Shown one piece after another: positions 12,033 through 21,098 of a stretch of DNA of 44,389 bases. The position numbers were made by a program, and so were the translations under genes. The notes below the pieces were generated by a model that saw only the letters and a program-made list of their open reading frames with translations, did no database searches and had not been told where the DNA came from. The DNA lies in IMG/VR virus record IMGVR_UViG_3300048583_000229, positions 1-44,389 of that record, one strand, 5' to 3'. How positions within the stretch are numbered: the first letter of the stretch is position 1; each line of letters starts with the position of its first letter. Origin of the DNA: a virus.

Positions 12033-12226
12033 ATTCTGAGACACTCCTTCTGTCAGCATACGCTCCGCCCATTCGCGAACGCATACTCGCCGAGGTGGAC
12101 ATATCTTTCCTCCGCGCAGTCTTACAACGGACGTCCCTGTCGCAGAAGGAGTGTCTCGACCGCATCGCCAACTCCGACGATCTCTCCTCCCAAATCGAAC
12201 TAACCATCAGCCATGTCAATTTTTAA
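12029..12226 (+). CDS. Small hypothetical protein overlapping nuclease gene
   Basis: The 65-residue helical product (IRERILAEVDISFLRAVLQ in the middle) starts in the previous stop codon (ATGA). It runs 14 bases into the PD-(D/E)XK nuclease gene. The overlap and small size suggest an accessory protein made together with the nuclease. No motif recognised. Confidence 0.55.
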   Translation: MNSETLLLSAYAPPIRERILAEVDISFLRAVLQRTSLSQKECLDRIANSDDLSSQIELTISHVNF

Positions 12227-13262
12227 CATACCAACCGATCTCAACGACCAAGTCGGCATCCCGAACGTCCCGTCCGAACGCCGTCCACTACTAACCCACG
12301 ACAAAGACCATGATTTCATCCTCCGAATCGACAACTCCACACTCGAATATTTTCAATCCTGTGCGCGCGCAGCGAAGTTCTATTGTGTTGACCGTCGTCA
12401 AGGAGTCCCAACAGCGGCGCTTACTTTCGGAGGCGCTATCCATCTTGGCCTCGAGACGTTATACGCCAAAGGTTTCGATGCGCTACCAGAAGCTATTGAC
12501 AGATGCGTCAAATATCTGTCCGACATTACCTTCCGAGACCCAGAAGAATGGCGAACACCCGCAATCGCTGAAGATACACTTCGAAAATACGCCGCCAAAT
12601 ACGGCGCTGATGAAATGCTCAAGCCCATACTTCACAACGGCAAGCCCTTCATCGAAAAGCCTTTCTCTTTAGTGATCGGCGAAATGGCGTTAGGTGCCCG
12701 CATGGCCTACACATACTCCCAACTCACCGACGTTGAATCCGACGACACGCTTTTCATCAACAAACTCACAATCCTATGGTCAGGCCGTATAGACATCGCG
12801 GCCACATACGGAGATGACTATGTCTATGTCGTCGACCACAAGACCTCGTCAATCGGCGGGCCACAGTTCTTCGCAGACTTCATGCTATCGCAGCAGATGG
12901 TCGGCTACAACTGGGCCTTACGCCAGATGCTGCCCGAGTATCACATCAACGGCACAGTCGTCAACGCCATCATCCAACGTAAACCCACCAAAACGGGTCG
13001 CGCACTCGACTTCGAACGCCAAACTTACTTCCACACCCAATGGCACGTAGACGAGTGGCATACGGATATCAACCAACATATCGAACACTTCGTCTACAGC
13101 CTCGTCACCGGCAAGTTTCCGAAATCCACAAAATGGTGCTTCGGCAAATTCGGTAAATGCAAATACCACGACGTTTGCACGCTTCCGCCACAGCAACGGC
13201 ACATCATGCTCGCCTCGCCTGAGTATACAAACGTCACCTGGTCTCCTCTCGACGACCGCTAA
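12213..13262 (+). CDS. PD-(D/E)XK nuclease, Cas4/RecB-like with Fe-S cysteines
   Basis: The product has 349 residues. A Cys pair lies near residues 50-58 (SCARAAKFYC), then GGAIHLGL with the GxxxH histidine (about residue 77). Later come the nuclease core (DIAATYG, VVDHKTSS, with the D and K of the D-(x)n-HK motif) and the QMVGYNWAL helix. A C-terminal Cys cluster follows (CFGKFGKCKYHDVC). The arrangement of one N-terminal and three C-terminal Cys around a RecB-type core matches Cas4/AddB-like iron-sulphur exonucleases, which resect DNA ends. Phage members usually act with a recombinase and SSB, both present downstream (14840, 16002). It ends a tight six-gene run and is followed by a palindrome copy. 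Confidence 0.9.
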   Translation: MSIFNIPTDLNDQVGIPNVPSERRPLLTHDKDHDFILRIDNSTLEYFQSCARAAKFYCVDRRQGVPTAALTFGGAIHLGLETLYAKGFDALPEAIDRCVKYLSDITFRDPEEWRTPAIAEDTLRKYAAKYGADEMLKPILHNGKPFIEKPFSLVIGEMALGARMAYTYSQLTDVESDDTLFINKLTILWSGRIDIAATYGDDYVYVVDHKTSSIGGPQFFADFMLSQQMVGYNWALRQMLPEYHINGTVVNAIIQRKPTKTGRALDFERQTYFHTQWHVDEWHTDINQHIEHFVYSLVTGKFPKSTKWCFGKFGKCKYHDVCTLPPQQRHIMLASPEYTNVTWSPLDDR

Positions 13263-13285: not shown

Positions 13286-13495
13286 ATGAGACGTAATCCA
13301 AAACAATACCCTATGAATGGTCCATCACTTGAAGCCCAACGGCTGATGGAGTTTCCCCGACGTAATCGCCATCTTCTGTGGCCGTTAATCGGGCGCAAGA
13401 CAATGCGCGAAGAGACACGCGCGGTGCTTTTTCTTGACGGGAATACAAAGCGGAGTGAGGTGAAAGAGCTTCTCGACCGTTTGCCGTCAGTGTGA
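13286..13495 (+). CDS. Small hypothetical protein
   Basis: The 69-residue, Arg-rich protein begins MRRNPKQYPMNGP. A perfectly spaced copy of the 17-bp palindrome (13265-13281) ends four bases before its ATG, so translation or transcription is probably controlled there. It directly precedes the structured RNA region, and its stop codon (13493-13495) is two bases from the first stem. A role in binding that RNA is an attractive guess given its basic character, but nothing proves it. Confidence 0.5.
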   Translation: MRRNPKQYPMNGPSLEAQRLMEFPRRNRHLLWPLIGRKTMREETRAVLFLDGNTKRSEVKELLDRLPSV

Positions 13496-13497
13496 TT

Positions 13498-14329
13498 TGT
13501 CAGAGCGCGTTCTGACACGGAAATGACGAAACCGTTAGCAATTCGTTCGTCGCTGACGCAGCACGTAAATCCTAGCCGTGAGAAGCCCACGTAAAAACTT
13601 CGGTTTGACAGATCTTAGTAAGACCAACTGTCCGAGAGAAGGAAACACGTAATAACGCCCTGCCGCTGACATACCGGTGCCCTGTATGTCACCACATTCC
13701 AGCCTCCGCAGTGAGGGCACACATCGTGGCGCTATAGAAAGTCGTATGCGCATAGCGTCCTGTGTGAGCGACCTGACCGGGGGTTGGAATGTGGTAGTCC
13801 CTAGCGACCAGCAAGCACTAGCATTAGGCTGGGAACACAAGTGCGTAAGCCCAGTTACCACACGTCCGTTATCCTTAAGATGTAGAGGACTGACGTTAAA
13901 ACATTCCATTCATCTGACAGCCGGGAAAGACCGGCACTACATGAGAGCTTCGTAAAGCACCACGAATCGGTCGCTCGGTAACTTGAGCGAACGGCTTTAC
14001 GAGGCTCCCATGTGGTCTAGCTAACCACACGTCAACGCAGGATACGAAAACTCTTGCCGGAACCGACAGTGCCAGTGGGCCAGTCGACTCCTGAAAACTC
14101 CACTGGCGTGAGTGCTCAGCACGTTAAACACATACGGGTAACGGTAGACGACCGATAGAGTCTACTCGCCAGAGAGTTGCTGCAGGTGTTAAGTGCGCAA
14201 CCGCTGCTGACAGACCAGCGTTATCGTCTGTCCTTACAAACGAGTTCTGAGTGACGGGAGGCCATAACAGGAACATGCCGGGGGGGCACAGTTCCGGTCA
14301 CTCAGGACTCATTTGTGAGCACGGTGCTC
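13498..14329 (+). ncRNA. Giant structured RNA (about 830 nt), GOLLD/ROOL-like or new class
   Basis: No reading frame of substance spans this block, yet it is packed with long stems. They include 13498-13517 (7 bp), 13667-13691 (8 bp) and an arm 13692-13794 closed by CCACATTCCAGCC/GGTTGGAATGTGG. Others are 13920-13935 (GCCGG, loop GAAAGA), an arm 13939-14013 with ACATG, GAGC, CGTAAAGC and TCGCTC stems, 14071-14107 (8 bp), 14144-14165 (6 bp) and 14209-14232 (7 bp). The last large one is a 20-position helix 14236-14255/14297-14316, followed by GAGCAC-G-GTGCTC to 14329. Size, density and phage setting resemble GOLLD or ROOL RNAs. Membership is unverified. The plus strand is chosen from G-U pairs and neighbouring genes. 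Confidence 0.75.
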
Positions 14330-14362
14330 CAAACAAAACAGACAAACAAACAACACAAAACC

Positions 14363-14578
14363 ATGTATTACATAACCTATCAGTTCAATGAATCTGCGAT
14401 CATTACCGTGACCGCGATCTCATTCAGCATCTTCAAGCCGATCCCCGGCGAGACAGATGACATCATGCAGCTGACCGACCGTCAAGGCACTACTCATCGC
14501 CTTCCCGCCACGTCACTTATCTCCATCGTCCCGGTCCGCAAGGTCCGTCAACGTGCGACAACCCCAAAGAAAGACTAA
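14363..14578 (+). CDS. Small beta-rich hypothetical protein
   Basis: The product has 71 residues from ATG 14363. It is preceded by a leader made almost only of A and C (CAAACAAACAACACAAAACC), with no Shine-Dalgarno motif. In-frame sequence up to 14315 is part of the RNA's 3' end, so I exclude it. The protein has strand-like segments (YYITYQF, AIITVTAISF, HRLPATSLISIVPV) as in a small barrel and a basic C-terminus (RKVRQRATTPKKD). No family recognised. Confidence 0.55.
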   Translation: MYYITYQFNESAIITVTAISFSIFKPIPGETDDIMQLTDRQGTTHRLPATSLISIVPVRKVRQRATTPKKD

Positions 14579-14582
14579 AGCC

Positions 14583-14843
14583 ATGATTGCATACGATCCA
14601 AGTGGTAAAAAGGTTCGCGTTGGCCATTGGCACTATGAAGCTGCCGAGTATAAGGGCCATGAGATAATCAAACCGCGTGTTAAAGAAGTTCGTTTCGACA
14701 ATCCTGATACTGACTACGAAGGCACACTTCAAGGCTTTGGCACTGAAGGAGACGGCAACGAGTTATGCATCGTCGCCCTCGTCGAAAAACCTGACGGCAC
14801 GTTCGACACACCATCCGCAAACACTATCCAAATCATCAAATGA
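14583..14843 (+). CDS. Small hypothetical protein upstream of Sak4
   Basis: The product has 86 residues from ATG 14583. The sequence alternates charged and hydrophobic residues, as in a beta-rich domain (KKVRVGHWHYEAAEY; LCIVALVEKPDGTF). It begins four bases after the previous gene and overlaps the recombinase-like ATPase gene by four bases (ATGA at 14840-14843), so it is coupled to it. It could be an accessory of the recombination module. No family recognised. Confidence 0.55.
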   Translation: MIAYDPSGKKVRVGHWHYEAAEYKGHEIIKPRVKEVRFDNPDTDYEGTLQGFGTEGDGNELCIVALVEKPDGTFDTPSANTIQIIK

Positions 14844-15601
14844 AATCAGCCACAGACCTACACCAGAATGACCGCGCCATTATCATCATCGGCGATCCAG
14901 GGACACGAAAGACAACTCTCTGTCTTCACTTCCCCTCCCCCTACTTCCTCGACTGTGACGGTAATCTCTCCGCCCCTGTCGAGCACACAGGCATCCGCAC
15001 GTTCTTCTACGACCGTGCGGCACATGACGATGAGGGCCACGAAATACATCCCATCAACCGCTTCCTCCACTGTGTCAAATGCCTCAACGCCGCTGTCGCT
15101 TCCCCCGAAGTCAAAACAATCATCATCGACAGTCTCACGTCGTTCACCGACATCATCCTTAGCGAAATTAAACGCCAAGAGCATGGTGCGGCTGCGGCAA
15201 CTGATTCTGCCCGTGATGTGGCGGACGCAAAATCAATGCGCATCCAAGACTGGGGTAAGTTCGCTTTCCTCCTCAAGAACATAGTCACCAAGCTCCGTTC
15301 CTGCGGCAAAACCATCGTCTTCACCGCGCATAACAACTTCGAGAAAGACGAAGTCGACTCGCGCTTCAAGCAATTCATCAACGTCCCCGGTCAGTCAAAG
15401 TCCACAATCTCCGGACTCTTCACCGACTGCTGGCACACGTTTATGGAAGTCAAAGGTCTAGGCGACGCGGCCCAACACCGCTTCCTCGTTCGCACCCTAC
15501 CAGTCAACGAGATCGACCACCGAGGCGTCAAATCCTCGTTCAAAAACCTCAAGCGCATCAACACGTTCGAGGAAGTCATAGCCGAACTTAAGAAACTCTA
15601 A
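14840..15601 (+). CDS. Sak4-type RecA-like ATPase (phage recombinase)
   Basis: The 253-residue protein has the Walker A motif GDPGTRKT at residues 18-25, followed by a strand ending FLDCDGN. The Walker B strand is VKTIIIDS near 91-98, and a sensor-like strand TIVFTAHN follows. This is the minimal RecA/RAD51 core of the Sak4 family (phage nucleotide-binding protein), which promotes single-strand annealing and strand exchange together with an SSB. An SSB-like gene lies 400 bp downstream and a Cas4-like nuclease upstream, completing a recombination module. The Walker A loop has Arg where Gly is usual (GTRKT). The family call is firm. Activity is known from relatives only. Confidence 0.9.
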   Translation: MKSATDLHQNDRAIIIIGDPGTRKTTLCLHFPSPYFLDCDGNLSAPVEHTGIRTFFYDRAAHDDEGHEIHPINRFLHCVKCLNAAVASPEVKTIIIDSLTSFTDIILSEIKRQEHGAAAATDSARDVADAKSMRIQDWGKFAFLLKNIVTKLRSCGKTIVFTAHNNFEKDEVDSRFKQFINVPGQSKSTISGLFTDCWHTFMEVKGLGDAAQHRFLVRTLPVNEIDHRGVKSSFKNLKRINTFEEVIAELKKL

Positions 15602-16506: not shown

Positions 16507-16746
16507 ATGTTTAGGGATAGAGTTAAACGCGTGAGTGTGAGTGATGTTCAGCCAGAGACTGTTCTGGATCTTTTGCGTTTTCTCCCCCGGCGTTTGTTGG
16601 AGAGTATTGTGAAAGAATATGGACTTACTCCGGTTAATAAATCCAAGGACGCTATGATTTTTATTATCGCTGAACATCGAAAGACCATTTTTAAGACCTT
16701 AAAATTTACCTTATCATATGCAGACAGAAATAACGACGGAGAATGA
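16507..16746 (+). CDS. Small SAP/Rho-N-like putative DNA-binding protein
   Basis: The product has 79 residues from ATG 16507. An in-frame ATG at 16459 lies ahead of the terminator stem and is unlikely. The central part (LLRFLPRRLLESIVKEYGL, then NKSKDAMIFIIAEHR) follows the helix-turn-helix spacing of SAP or Rho N-terminal-like domains, which bind nucleic acid. It overlaps the ParB-methyltransferase gene by 29 bases, so the two are probably co-translated. The domain call is tentative. Confidence 0.5.
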   Translation: MFRDRVKRVSVSDVQPETVLDLLRFLPRRLLESIVKEYGLTPVNKSKDAMIFIIAEHRKTIFKTLKFTLSYADRNNDGE

Positions 16747-18241
16747 AGTGCTTGACCCTAAGATCGCGGAGGTTATTGAGATTGCCCAGTGGCAGTTTCG
16801 GTATCCGATGAATGCGGAGAAGGTTAAGTGGGATGATGTGCAGATGGACGAGCGGAGTCGAAAGGACTTCGGGAATCTCGAGGAGTTGGCGCTGAGCATC
16901 CAGAAGAACGGGCTGATTCATCCGCCGACTGTGACGATCGCGCCACCCGGTGCGGCTAAGCCGTATACGCTGGTAGGTGGTGAGCGGAGAATGCGGGCGA
17001 TGAAGATGCTCGAGGTTCCGTTCTTTCCTGTGAATTTGCGTGAGGCGCTCGAGTATCATGAAGTGCTGGAGTTGGAACTCATGGAGAATTTCCACCGCAA
17101 GGAAATGCTGTGGCAAGAGCAATGTATACTTATCGCTCGGACGCACAGGGAGAAGGAGCGTGTTGCGGCGGTCGACTCCAAGACGTGGGGTGTGCGTGAG
17201 ACGGGTCGCTTGCTTGGTGTGTCAATCGGGCACGTATCGCACGCGACGACGCTGGCACCAAAGCTCATCGCTGGCGATGCCGAACTGCTTGCTGCACCGA
17301 GCATGTTCGCGGCGTACGAGATTCTCCTCAAGCGTCAGGAAGACTTGGCGATGAAGTTGTCGACGCAGGATTTGAACGCAACAGCCGCCCGAGCGATCAC
17401 GGGAATTCATCAGACGTCCGACGATGTTGATGATATCTTCGGAAGTCCTGATCCTGCTTCCCCTTTCGGTGCTGGTGGCATTGATGACTTTGTCGCGTCT
17501 CAGCAGATTAGCGAGCCGAAAGCCGGTAGGCTGAACATGGATTTTAGTCGGCTGTTCATGCTCGGCGACTGTATCGAACTCATGCCGAACATGCAAGACG
17601 AGTGTGTCGATCACGTCGTCACCGACCCGCCTTATGGTATTGACCTCGCGATGATGCCGGATATTAAGAACATCGAGAACGTCGTCGACACGCATGACGT
17701 GGAACAGAACATCTCAATGTTCGAGCCGTTCCTTCGCGAGTCGTTCCGCTTGCTTAAACCTTCGGGTTATTGTGTGTTCTGGTATGATCTTGATCACCAC
17801 GAGAAACTCCAGGCACTCGGCAAGGCCATTGGGTTCAAAGTCCAACGCTGGCCGATTGTTTGGCATAAGCTACATCCCTGCCTTAACAATGCGCCGAGGG
17901 TGAACTTTACCAAAAACGTCGAGTTCGCGATGGTGATGCGGAAGGGTGCGGCTTGTCTTGTAGAACCGCAGACTTCTTCGGTGTTCGGAGCCGACGGCAG
18001 TGCCGATCGTAAGCTCTATGACAATCCGTTCGCCAAGCCACTTGCGGCCTGGAAGTTCATCCTTAACGCCATTGCGTATAAGGGCCAGTCCATCTTCGAC
18101 CCGTATGCGGGCCAGATGTCTTGTGGGCGCGCTTGCGTCAACATGGGTCTCATTCCGATGGGGATTGAGATAGATGAGAACCACTACAACCGCGGTATCG
18201 TGCAACTCACGGGACTGCAGAAAGAAATCAATGGACATTAA
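16718..18241 (+). CDS. ParB/Srx-domain and DNA methyltransferase fusion
   Basis: The 507-residue protein has two parts. Residues about 25-205 are ParB/sulfiredoxin-like: ELALSIQKNGLIHPPTV, GGERRMRAMKML near 84-98, and LELMENFHRKEM, followed by an HTH-like stretch (RETGRLLGVSIGHVSHATT). Residues about 275-507 are a methyltransferase with DPPYG at about 302 (motif IV) and FDPYAGQMSCGRACVNMG near 460 (motif I). This IV-before-I order is typical of beta-class N6-adenine or N4-cytosine enzymes. It probably methylates phage DNA against restriction, or marks sites for replication or packaging. The ParB part may bind DNA, or bind and hydrolyse CTP. Target sequence unknown. Confidence 0.9.
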   Translation: MQTEITTENEVLDPKIAEVIEIAQWQFRYPMNAEKVKWDDVQMDERSRKDFGNLEELALSIQKNGLIHPPTVTIAPPGAAKPYTLVGGERRMRAMKMLEVPFFPVNLREALEYHEVLELELMENFHRKEMLWQEQCILIARTHREKERVAAVDSKTWGVRETGRLLGVSIGHVSHATTLAPKLIAGDAELLAAPSMFAAYEILLKRQEDLAMKLSTQDLNATAARAITGIHQTSDDVDDIFGSPDPASPFGAGGIDDFVASQQISEPKAGRLNMDFSRLFMLGDCIELMPNMQDECVDHVVTDPPYGIDLAMMPDIKNIENVVDTHDVEQNISMFEPFLRESFRLLKPSGYCVFWYDLDHHEKLQALGKAIGFKVQRWPIVWHKLHPCLNNAPRVNFTKNVEFAMVMRKGAACLVEPQTSSVFGADGSADRKLYDNPFAKPLAAWKFILNAIAYKGQSIFDPYAGQMSCGRACVNMGLIPMGIEIDENHYNRGIVQLTGLQKEINGH

Positions 18242-18416: not shown

Positions 18417-18634
18417 ATCACGAACGAGCATTAGTAATCGCACAAGTTGCGCTGAGCAAGGAGAAAGAACTGCGGCTGACTAATAACGAACGCACAGGGA
18501 TCGAAAGGTTCCTAGGCATTTCGTCCAGTCAACCATGCAAGAAACATGGAACCGCGTTCAACTCTAACTATATGTTGAACAATTTCGAACCGCTAATCCG
18601 CGACATGTTCCCTAATGAATACGCCACTCTTTGA
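18413..18634 (+). CDS. Small hypothetical protein upstream of DNA polymerase
   Basis: The 73-residue, mostly helical product starts MNHERALVIAQVALSKEK. Its 3' end overlaps the polymerase gene by 20 bases and its start overlaps the previous gene by four. The position suggests an accessory of the replication module. No motif or family recognised. Confidence 0.55.
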   Translation: MNHERALVIAQVALSKEKELRLTNNERTGIERFLGISSSQPCKKHGTAFNSNYMLNNFEPLIRDMFPNEYATL

Positions 18635-21098
18635 CCTTAATGAAGTCCAGACGACTACGACAGCACAAGCACTACCCGCCGAGTATCCTCAAGTCGGTGC
18701 GGCGTATTCGATCCTTGTCGTCGGTGACTGCCCCGGTGATACCGACCTCAAAGAGTCCCGCCCGTTCAGCGGGACCGCTGGAGGAGTGTTGCGAAACATA
18801 CTCAACTCGGTGGGCATATCGCCAATGGCCGTCGGATTCACATACGTTTCCCAGCAAAAGATAAAATACGAGAACGCGCACAAGGATTTCCCTTGGCATG
18901 GACCGGAAGTGACTGAAGGACGTGAAAAGCTCGCGGCTGACGTTGCAAAACTCAAGCCCAACCTTATTGTCCTTCTCGGTGACGTCCCGCTCGGAGTAGC
19001 TGGAAAGCGGGGCGAGCGTGTGACAAATTGGCACGGATCACTATTCCGCTGCGAAGCGATGGATTCGCCGTTTTACGGATACAAGTGTATGGCGACCTAC
19101 GATCCCATGGATGTGTTCCGCAATTACGAGTGGATGCCGCTGTTGCGGTTTGACCTCCAACGTGCTTTCGACGAAGGACACTCTCCCGAGTTACACCTTC
19201 CCGTCCGCACGTACGAGCTTAACCTGTCCGCGCATCAAGTGATTGAGAAACTCCGATGCCTTCCACCCAACCGTCCCATCGCTCTCGACATCGAGGGCTA
19301 TGTCTCGTGGATCTCCTGTCTCTCTATCGCGACTTCCGACACCGAAGCGTTCATCATCCCTTTCGGCATCTACTCCGTCGAAGACGATGCGCGTGTGATA
19401 GAGCAACTCCGCATCACGATGGCACGTCACGACATTCCAAAGATACTTCAAAACTGTATCTATGACTATTTCGTTCTCGCATGGAAATATCAGATCATTC
19501 TGTCGAATATCGCCTGGGACACAATGCTTTCTGGCTGGGAGTTATATCCAGAACTTCCCAAGGGACTGGGCACGCAAACCGCTATATGGACTCGAGAACC
19601 TTACTATAAATTCCAGCGTAAAATCGACCACACTGTTACGCATTGGAAATACTGCTGCACAGATTCCTGCGTCACGTACGAAATAGCGAGCAAACATGAC
19701 AAAGCACTTTCATCGTCCGCCAGATCGCACTTTCAGTTTAACATGGAACTTTTACCTGCGATCAACTACATGCAAATACGTGGTATGCGGTTCGACCGAG
19801 AACGCGCTAACGAGCTACTTGCTTTATCACGCGCCAAGCAATCTGAGATCCAACTCCGCATCAACATCGAAGCTGGCAAAGCTGTCAATGTCAACTCCCC
19901 CAAACAACTAGCAACCATCCTCTACCGTGACAAACACTTTCCTAAACAGCATCCAAAGAAAGCGGGTAAAATCGATCGGACAAAACTCTCTACCGACATT
20001 GACGCTCTTCTCGAACTCAACCGTCTCTACGACTCTCCGTTCATCCGAGACCTCATCGCATGGCGAAAGTGCGAAAAGATCCAGCAAACCCTGTCCATCC
20101 CAACCTCCCCTGTCGATAATCGCATTCGCTGTTCATACAATCTTGTCGGAACTGAGACCGGTCGGCTTAACTGTTATTCATCATCTGAGCACTCGACCGT
20201 GTTGGGTTCGGACGGTAAGCCAAAGGACGTGGGGGCTAATCTTACAACGGTTACAAAGAAACTCCGTCACCTTTTCCGTGCGGACGATGAATACGAGTTT
20301 TTCCAATGCGATCTCGCCGGAGCTGACGGGTGGACGGTTGCTGCTCATTGCGCCAGATTCGGTGATACTACAATGCTCGACGACTATTACGCCGGAATCA
20401 AACCCGCACGAGTGATCGGCTACATGTATCTTCACGGTGCGGACACGGCGCGCCTTGACCGAGCGACTCTCGGTAAATCCTGTAAATACATCGGCGCAAC
20501 AAATGAAACGGAATCGCTCTATTTCACGTGCAAACGCGTTCAACACGGCACAAACTATCTTCTCGGACCTGGCACCATGGCAAATCAGATTCTTAAAGAC
20601 AGTTTTAAACTCACAGGGAATCCACTATACGTCGACCAAAAAACATGTATTGCACTTCAAAAACTCTACAACCTCCGATATAAAGGAGTCGCGGCGTGGC
20701 AAACATGGGTCGAACAAGAACTTAAAGGCAAAGGTCGTCTCTCATGTGCATCTGGCCATACTCGAACCTTCTTTGGTAGACGACAAGCTCATGAAACTTT
20801 GCGCTCAGCCGTCGCACATGAACCTCAGGCAAACACCACCTACGCCACAAACATGGCATTCCATAAGCTCTGGCACGATCCCGAGAACCGAAACCCCGAC
20901 GGCTCTCTCATCATCCAACCCCTCCACCAGGTCCACGACGCCATGTGTGGACAGTGGCCAGTGTCCCGCCGTGACTGGGCAATCGCCAAAATCAAATCCT
21001 ATTTCGACAACCCAATAACCATCGCGGGCACAACCCTCGTCATTCCGTTCGAAGGCAACTACGGACCGTCATGGGGCGAGCAACCAAACTCATTCTAA
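18615..21098 (+). CDS. Family A DNA polymerase with N-terminal uracil-DNA glycosylase-like domain
   Basis: The product has 827 residues in three parts. Residues about 30-195 are UDG-like: GDCPG at 37-41, SRPFSGTAGGVLRN, PNLIVLLGDVPLG and ATYDPMDVFR near 160. About 215-370 are a 3'-5' exonuclease, with DIEG near 224, NCIYDYF near 280 and YCCTD near 347. About 385-827 are a Pol I-type polymerase, with CDLAGADGW (motif A, about 564), CKRVQHGTNYLLGP (motif B) and QVHDAM (motif C, about 773). UDG-Pol A fusions are known, for example in SPO1-like phages. Here the UDG catalytic positions are altered (GDCPG, and D for H in the second motif), so the domain may only sense uracil. This is the phage replicase. 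Confidence 0.93.
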   Translation: MNTPLFDLNEVQTTTTAQALPAEYPQVGAAYSILVVGDCPGDTDLKESRPFSGTAGGVLRNILNSVGISPMAVGFTYVSQQKIKYENAHKDFPWHGPEVTEGREKLAADVAKLKPNLIVLLGDVPLGVAGKRGERVTNWHGSLFRCEAMDSPFYGYKCMATYDPMDVFRNYEWMPLLRFDLQRAFDEGHSPELHLPVRTYELNLSAHQVIEKLRCLPPNRPIALDIEGYVSWISCLSIATSDTEAFIIPFGIYSVEDDARVIEQLRITMARHDIPKILQNCIYDYFVLAWKYQIILSNIAWDTMLSGWELYPELPKGLGTQTAIWTREPYYKFQRKIDHTVTHWKYCCTDSCVTYEIASKHDKALSSSARSHFQFNMELLPAINYMQIRGMRFDRERANELLALSRAKQSEIQLRINIEAGKAVNVNSPKQLATILYRDKHFPKQHPKKAGKIDRTKLSTDIDALLELNRLYDSPFIRDLIAWRKCEKIQQTLSIPTSPVDNRIRCSYNLVGTETGRLNCYSSSEHSTVLGSDGKPKDVGANLTTVTKKLRHLFRADDEYEFFQCDLAGADGWTVAAHCARFGDTTMLDDYYAGIKPARVIGYMYLHGADTARLDRATLGKSCKYIGATNETESLYFTCKRVQHGTNYLLGPGTMANQILKDSFKLTGNPLYVDQKTCIALQKLYNLRYKGVAAWQTWVEQELKGKGRLSCASGHTRTFFGRRQAHETLRSAVAHEPQANTTYATNMAFHKLWHDPENRNPDGSLIIQPLHQVHDAMCGQWPVSRRDWAIAKIKSYFDNPITIAGTTLVIPFEGNYGPSWGEQPNSF

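Follow-up and report, generated by a model that had tools for sequence, protein, structure and literature searches.

A putative modular RNA in a podovirus-like phage, and a covarying hairpin that may punctuate phage RNAs

What does a phage keep in about 830 nucleotides between two small genes, if not a protein? The first-pass annotation of the virus record studied here had described such a block as non-coding and almost everywhere locally paired, and had proposed a giant structured RNA. The window, by which we mean the whole 44.4-kb record analysed, carries podovirus-like genes, among them those for an SU10-type portal, a terminase, a DNA polymerase A fusion, an exonuclease, a Sak4-like ATPase and a ligase. 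On its 5' side the block is bordered by the exonuclease gene and a 69-aa ORF, and on its 3' side by two small ORFs with the Sak4-like gene after them; its assignment to a replication and recombination arm is supported. Elsewhere in the window we observed a DNA polymerase A with an N-terminal uracil-DNA-glycosylase-like domain (18615-21098) and a ParB-like N-terminal domain fused to an N6/N4 DNA methylase (16718-18241). The block and its neighbours are arranged as follows.

12213 to 13262, plus strand: PD-(D/E)XK exonuclease gene, upstream (Pfam PDDEXK_1, PHROG exonuclease)
13286 to 13495, plus strand: small ORF of 69 aa, upstream (codon score +0.11)
13498 to 14330, plus strand: non-coding, highly structured block, a putative RNA or RNA array (fold z, codon scores, no Rfam match)
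14363 to 14578, plus strand: small ORF of 71 aa, downstream (codon score +0.29)
14840 to 15601, plus strand: Sak4-like recombinase/annealing ATPase gene, downstream (PHROG 124, AAA_24)

Codon scores are negative for the ORFs within the block (-0.04 to -0.29 bits per codon) and positive for the genes flanking it (+0.09 to +0.41 bits per codon), and on this ground we rejected the open frames as hidden genes. The GC skew is about zero in the block, compared with about -0.2 in the adjoining genes. Measured against dinucleotide shuffles, the plus strand of the whole block folds with a z of -7.0 and the minus strand with one of -5.2, whereas four coding controls from the same window gave values of -0.8 to -2.9. 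The original observation was therefore right, since the block shows no coding signal, a G/C balance unlike that of its neighbours, a strong fold and significant arms and hairpins. The helices it had named were recovered as inverted repeats, namely two multi-tier arms (13691-13708/13778-13795 and 13936-13958/13994-14016) and a 3' helix (14230-14259/14293-14322). Its figure of at least ten stems is fair for the minimum-energy fold, but only five elements, the three arms and two hairpins, clearly beat their own shuffles. No sigma-70-like promoter was found in the block region. We also considered a CsrA-like decoy and rejected it, as GGA occurs 11 times on the plus strand against 14 expected. The elements of the block are listed below.

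13498 to 13517, plus strand: 5' hairpin TGTCAGA/TCTGACA (inverted repeat; z -1.45 alone)
13562-13568, 13588-13594 and 13646-13652, plus strand: CACGTAA repeats (word count)
13666 to 13691, plus strand: CUGACA hairpin before arm 1 (z -3.3 for 13667-13691)
13691 to 13795, plus strand: arm 1, multi-tier (inverted repeat; z -5.4)
13892-13898 and 14120-14126, plus strand: the related words GACGTTA and CACGTTA, extending the CACGTAA series
13915 to 13936, plus strand: motif A hairpin (z -3.8)
13936 to 14016, plus strand: arm 2, which is motif B (z -7.9)
14207 to 14232, plus strand: CUGACA hairpin before arm 3 (per-element fold, word count)
14230 to 14322, plus strand: arm 3, the 3' helix of the block (inverted repeat of 30 nt, 83% complementary; z -5.3)

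With so small a z on its own the 5' hairpin is weak. The word CACGTAA occurs three times where the rest of the window would predict 0.02 copies, and words of the form [CG]ACGT[AT]A occur five times against 0.16 expected, in both cases on the plus strand only. The three copies at the 5' end had been reported before, but with two of the positions one base off (13562 and 13588 are correct). Neither CACGTAA nor ACGTWAAA is enriched near motif A elsewhere, and we rejected both as general partners of that hairpin; the CACGTAA-type words are specific to the block. A second word, CTGACA, is present in four copies against 0.14 expected, and three of the four sit 22 to 25 nt ahead of a strong arm (13666 before 13691, 13914 before 13936 and 14207 before 14230). 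This arrangement is suggestive of three modules, each a small CUGACA-headed hairpin followed by a long arm of 80-105 nt. Sequence similarity among the three modules is not significant, so that paralogy is unsupported and only the order of hairpin and arm is shared; given the lack of detectable kinship, and as the pattern was noticed post hoc, we regard the shared order as suggestive and not as proof.

We asked whether the block belongs to a known RNA family. None of the 4227 Rfam families matched the window at curated scores, and at E<=10 the single match in the block, to aceE-II, is at chance level (E 7.7) and scores well under the cut-off of that family. At E<=10 neither the GOLLD model (RF02032) nor the ROOL model (RF03087) matched the window; the ROOL model was also silent on the control genomes, so for ROOL it is the all-Rfam scans that carry the point. 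Neither ARAGORN nor Rfam detected a tRNA or tmRNA in the 44-kb window, and HEARO (RF02033) is likewise absent from it. GOLLD RNAs are phage-borne, ornate and non-coding, exceed 800 nt in many members and have no known function, and ROOL is a large structured RNA of phages and prophages that is often found near tRNA islands (PMC12286853). The block resembles GOLLD in being phage-borne, large, ornate and non-coding, but it differs in having no covariance-model match and in lying in a window without tRNAs, where GOLLD is often near them. It resembles ROOL as a large structured phage RNA and again differs in the absence of a model match. We therefore discarded GOLLD, ROOL and every other Rfam family as the identity of the block, for want of any model match. 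The earlier suggestion of a divergent GOLLD fails on the same GOLLD and ROOL models, the negative all-Rfam scan and the missing tRNAs; the alternative then offered, a new class, fits best, albeit as a modular array with a hairpin shared across phages.

That hairpin emerged from comparison with other phages. A sensitive blastn search with the whole block against 50,697 phage records returned, apart from chance matches, only the A hairpin, as one common word at window positions 13914-13938. This word lies in non-coding stretches of unrelated phages, namely mEp390 and the Stenotrophomonas phages Pokken and BUCT708, although the annotation of BUCT708 places a short ORF there. We defined motif A as UGACA-N4-GGAAAGAC-N4-A, a definition that window positions 13915-13936 satisfy with the following parts.

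13915-13919, plus strand: UGACA
13920-13923 and 13932-13935, plus strand: stem GCCG/CGGC
13924-13931, plus strand: loop GGAAAGAC
13936, plus strand: closing A

Motif A is found in hundreds of phage and prophage loci, with hosts in the Proteobacteria, Bacteroidota, Clostridia, Spirochaetes, Planctomycetes and others. At least 120 IMG/VR contigs contain its exact 21-mer, and the exact 22-mer is present in 100 prokaryote genome stretches, which come from many phyla. We scanned for covariation using the pattern TGACANNNNGGAAAGACNNNNA, in which the stem is left free and the loop and 5' flank are invariant by construction. Complementarity at all four stem pairs was seen in 66 of the 100 distinct new places, against a mean of 13.4 and a maximum of 24 after permutation, and these 66 places hold 30 different stems. 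G-U pairs also occur, in the orientation of the motif. The paired fraction, the number of stem types and the orientation of the G-U pairs together show that motif A is a real covarying RNA hairpin. The open-access literature, to which our search and so a provisional claim of novelty are confined, held no report of hairpin A or of similar large phage RNAs. The loop (13924-13931) is also letter-identical to part of the 23S rRNA segment ACGGAAAGACCCCGU (2054-2068, in the macrolide-site region; PMC12887398), an identity over eight letters that could be due to chance.

The neighbours of motif A show a consistent pattern. The viral and phage loci fetched by pattern include 19 with a tRNA within 1.5 kb of the motif, and in all 19 the tRNA shares the strand of the motif; so it does in all 16 prokaryotic loci with a tRNA within 1 kb. 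Many of these tRNAs start 4-7 nt after the hairpin. An open search for 8-mers around motif A was dominated by T-arm words, one of which, GGGTTCGA, shares the strand of the motif in 36 of 206 loci and lies on the opposite one in two. The 100 nt on the 3' side of the motif have a z below -2 in 28% of 246 instances, whereas the 100 nt on the 5' side are structured in 10%, with controls at 7-10%. The motif falls inside an ORF of at least 100 aa in 41% of cases, compared with 76% for random positions, and some of these places may reflect real coding use of the hairpin. From the tRNA, structure and ORF data we conclude that motif A tends to flank folded RNAs at their 5' edge and to precede genes as well; outside the window it directly precedes tRNAs, other structured RNAs and operon genes. 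At curated or gathering scores the RNAs in 36 motif A loci (20 + 16) were tRNAs and one HEARO RNA, and at curated scores GOLLD and ROOL were absent from all 36. The association with HEARO was thus seen once in 36 loci (gathering score); in that locus motif A is closely preceded, on its own strand, by an IscB-type guide RNA of this family (L014:585-896). By eye, tRNA-like genes with odd or inserted parts were also visible beside motif A in several loci (L241, L243, L234, L157 and L130:2680-2855). In lambdoid loci such as L004:2986-3099 the motif lies within a short conserved-looking ORF (MGLTSLTAGKDR...); here either the hairpin may have been co-opted as coding sequence or the ORF may not be a real gene.

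Directly after motif A in the window comes a 23-bp arm that we term motif B. Its definition is an A-C mismatch next to RAGC/GCUY, flanked on either side by paired helices, and window positions 13936-14016 agree with this definition.

13944 and 14008, plus strand: A-C mismatch of motif B
13945-13948 and 14004-14007, plus strand: GAGC/GCUC, with the outer and inner helices on either side

Motif B is found in lambdoid phages, in phage Pokken and in another virus. The same anatomy follows motif A, or a close variant of it, in mEp390, BUCT708, phiV10 and several IMG/VR contigs, including one, L233, which is not enterobacterial by sequence. Shuffles of all the collected loci gave no chance matches to motif B. 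Close to motif A, the strict form with a single A-C mismatch was recovered only from the window, from Pokken and, weakly, from one further place, and 968 kb of far sequence contained no copy. In an alignment of A and B together, partly selected in that its rows were chosen for having the arm, 95.8% of the cells are paired and nine of the 15 pairs are changed on both sides. None of 500 shuffles reached so high a value, and slid registers fall well short. We also built a covariance model, R1, from motif B alone, leaving out both the window and motif A. Its best match in the 44 kb is at 13933-14017 on the plus strand (21.8 bits, E 3.4e-4), compared with 10.5 bits on the minus strand, and it recognises phiV10 and G002, both outside the model, with E values of 1e-5 and 3e-4. 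The modules A and B are thus homologous to covarying modules of unrelated phages and score on the plus strand, which supports the earlier suggestion of an RNA made from that strand. The check then proposed, covariation among homologues, succeeds for motifs A and B but covers about 100 of the 830 nt, the rest being without a homologue.

Protein anchors led us to two related contigs, whose Sak4-like protein is 65% identical, and neither has such a block at the corresponding place. These nearest related contigs carry other small non-coding elements instead, and their non-coding stretch does not align to the block beyond chance. The Sak4-like protein led to no relatives among named phages and the DNA polymerase to distant ones only. 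As it is missing from both related contigs, the block is not essential to this phage group and looks like accessory cargo. In one close relative a 158-nt non-coding element precedes the Sak4-like gene (L126:1748-1905), with a multi-arm cloverleaf-like fold (z -2.8) and no Rfam match.

Comparable arrays were observed in other phages. Those of mEp390, BUCT708, Pokken, P7/P1 and PSKM are unannotated, and like the block they are long, structured and non-coding and lie on the strand of motif A; they differ in being often interleaved with tRNAs and in having no full-length similarity to the block. Their z values, from 14 shuffles each and hence rough, range overall from -2.7 to -7.1.

Pokken: arrays of 409, 536 and 870 nt (z -6.2 to -7.1)
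P7: array of 797 nt (z -5.5)
L233: array of 355 nt (z -4.7)
BUCT708: array of 586 nt (z -3.8)
mEp390: array of 681 nt (z -3.6)
PSKM: array of 746 nt (z -2.7)

Motif A itself or, as in PSKM, a form with one base changed is present in all except P7, whose array is linked to the others through other array modules. The arrays of mEp390, BUCT708 and Pokken also carry motif B or a B-like arm. The arrays are mosaics, with parts of the mEp390 array recurring in otherwise different phages, and some contain tRNAs or an RprA-like 3' end. Homologous stretches in E. coli chromosomes are unannotated. A lambdoid motif A array provides an example of the RprA-like end (L004:2707-2826; Rfam RprA at 50 bits, E 0.0012, below the cut-off), and RprA-like words were seen by eye in seven other lambdoid arrays (L034, L046, L064, L097, L117, L221 and L224). 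In phage P7, matches resembling tRNA-Sec and STnc100 fall just below their cut-offs (L127:1773-1857 and 1970-2085), within an unannotated stretch between tRNA-Thr and terB.

The reading that we favour, at about an even chance, is a plus-strand modular non-coding RNA in the recombination/replication operon of a podovirus-like phage, with motif A as a punctuation hairpin. The middle module, A with B, would be of a kind found in many unrelated phages. Motif A would be read in the nascent transcript, where it may mark the 5' boundary of each folded unit and insulate it or assist its processing; the transcript would yield one or several stable RNAs acting in trans. We infer accordingly a block that is transcribed, with A directing its processing and the products acting in trans. 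The hairpin itself could serve as a processing site, an insulator or a protein-binding site, and we favour processing because motif A, a mark of RNA boundaries elsewhere, sits mid-block. The same position is difficult to reconcile with a single giant RNA of the GOLLD or ROOL kind, folding in one piece and forming homo-oligomers like the closed RNA cage reported for one GOLLD RNA. A length of about 830 nt, the phage location, the ornate multi-tier arms and the absence of coding do match the published GOLLD and ROOL RNAs (PMC12286853), as would a whole-block z of -7 suit one large fold. However, neither model matches, no tRNA island is present here and the long-range pairs that would join the modules are unsupported by any homologue, and we consider the single giant RNA unlikely. 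We hold as similarly unlikely a cis-acting operon leader, such as a put-like antiterminator, which would alter RNA polymerase to permit readthrough into the downstream recombination genes. The put RNA of HK022, which works without a protein (PMC9378689), is a structured RNA in a lambdoid early leader, and the mEp390 array occupies a comparable position between the repressor and the leftward early genes; in BUCT708 and L233 too the array precedes early genes. Compared by description and not by sequence, put is nevertheless far smaller than the block, at about 70 nt with two stem-loops, and has no tie to tRNAs, and other motif A arrays lie in tRNA regions, beside the terminase or against flanking genes (phiV10, Klebsiella JustaPhage), positions that do not suit a leader.

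The link to tRNAs also raises the question of whether the modules are remnants of a remodelled tRNA island, acting as tRNA-like decoys that absorb the tRNA-cutting defences or toxins of the host. Motif A is strongly tied to tRNAs, several loci with A and TGARAGC are tRNAs with odd or inserted parts, and the closest relative has its cloverleaf-like element of 158 nt nearby. Yet the block has neither a T-arm nor a match to a tRNA model and its arms are long rods instead of cloverleaves, which leaves such decoys quite improbable. An element acting as DNA, a replication origin with CACGTAA iterons and hairpins, would account for the iteron-like repeats at the 5' end, for the replication genes nearby and for a minus strand that also folds well. 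This we regard as very unlikely, as motifs A and B are strand-specific with G-U pairs kept in homologues, motif A is always on the strand of the tRNA, and the cumulative GC skew has no turning point at the block. Returning to the punctuated modular RNA, we are somewhat more tentative about its wider form, which falls slightly short of an even chance: that an uncatalogued covarying hairpin punctuates the 5' edges of RNAs and tRNAs in the phages of many phyla, and that the block is a large modular RNA of an unrecognised class.

Large phage RNAs are few and unexplained, and the block offers a handle missing from those already known, in the form of a short hairpin with strong covariation. Cultured phages with these modules, such as mEp390, Pokken and PSKM, make the hairpin accessible to testing. 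Should hairpin A act as a signal for processing or recognition, it would indicate the starts of phage RNAs, and a single pattern could then help to find many unannotated structured RNAs. Motif A can also be abundant within one genome bin, the Thiotrichales MAG KR_bin-0880 holding at least eight copies (L268, L283, L284, L290, L298, L307, L310 and L316) in the manner of a dispersed element. Several of these copies lie directly 3' of a GUAA-loop hairpin, GGCCCGUAAGGGC.
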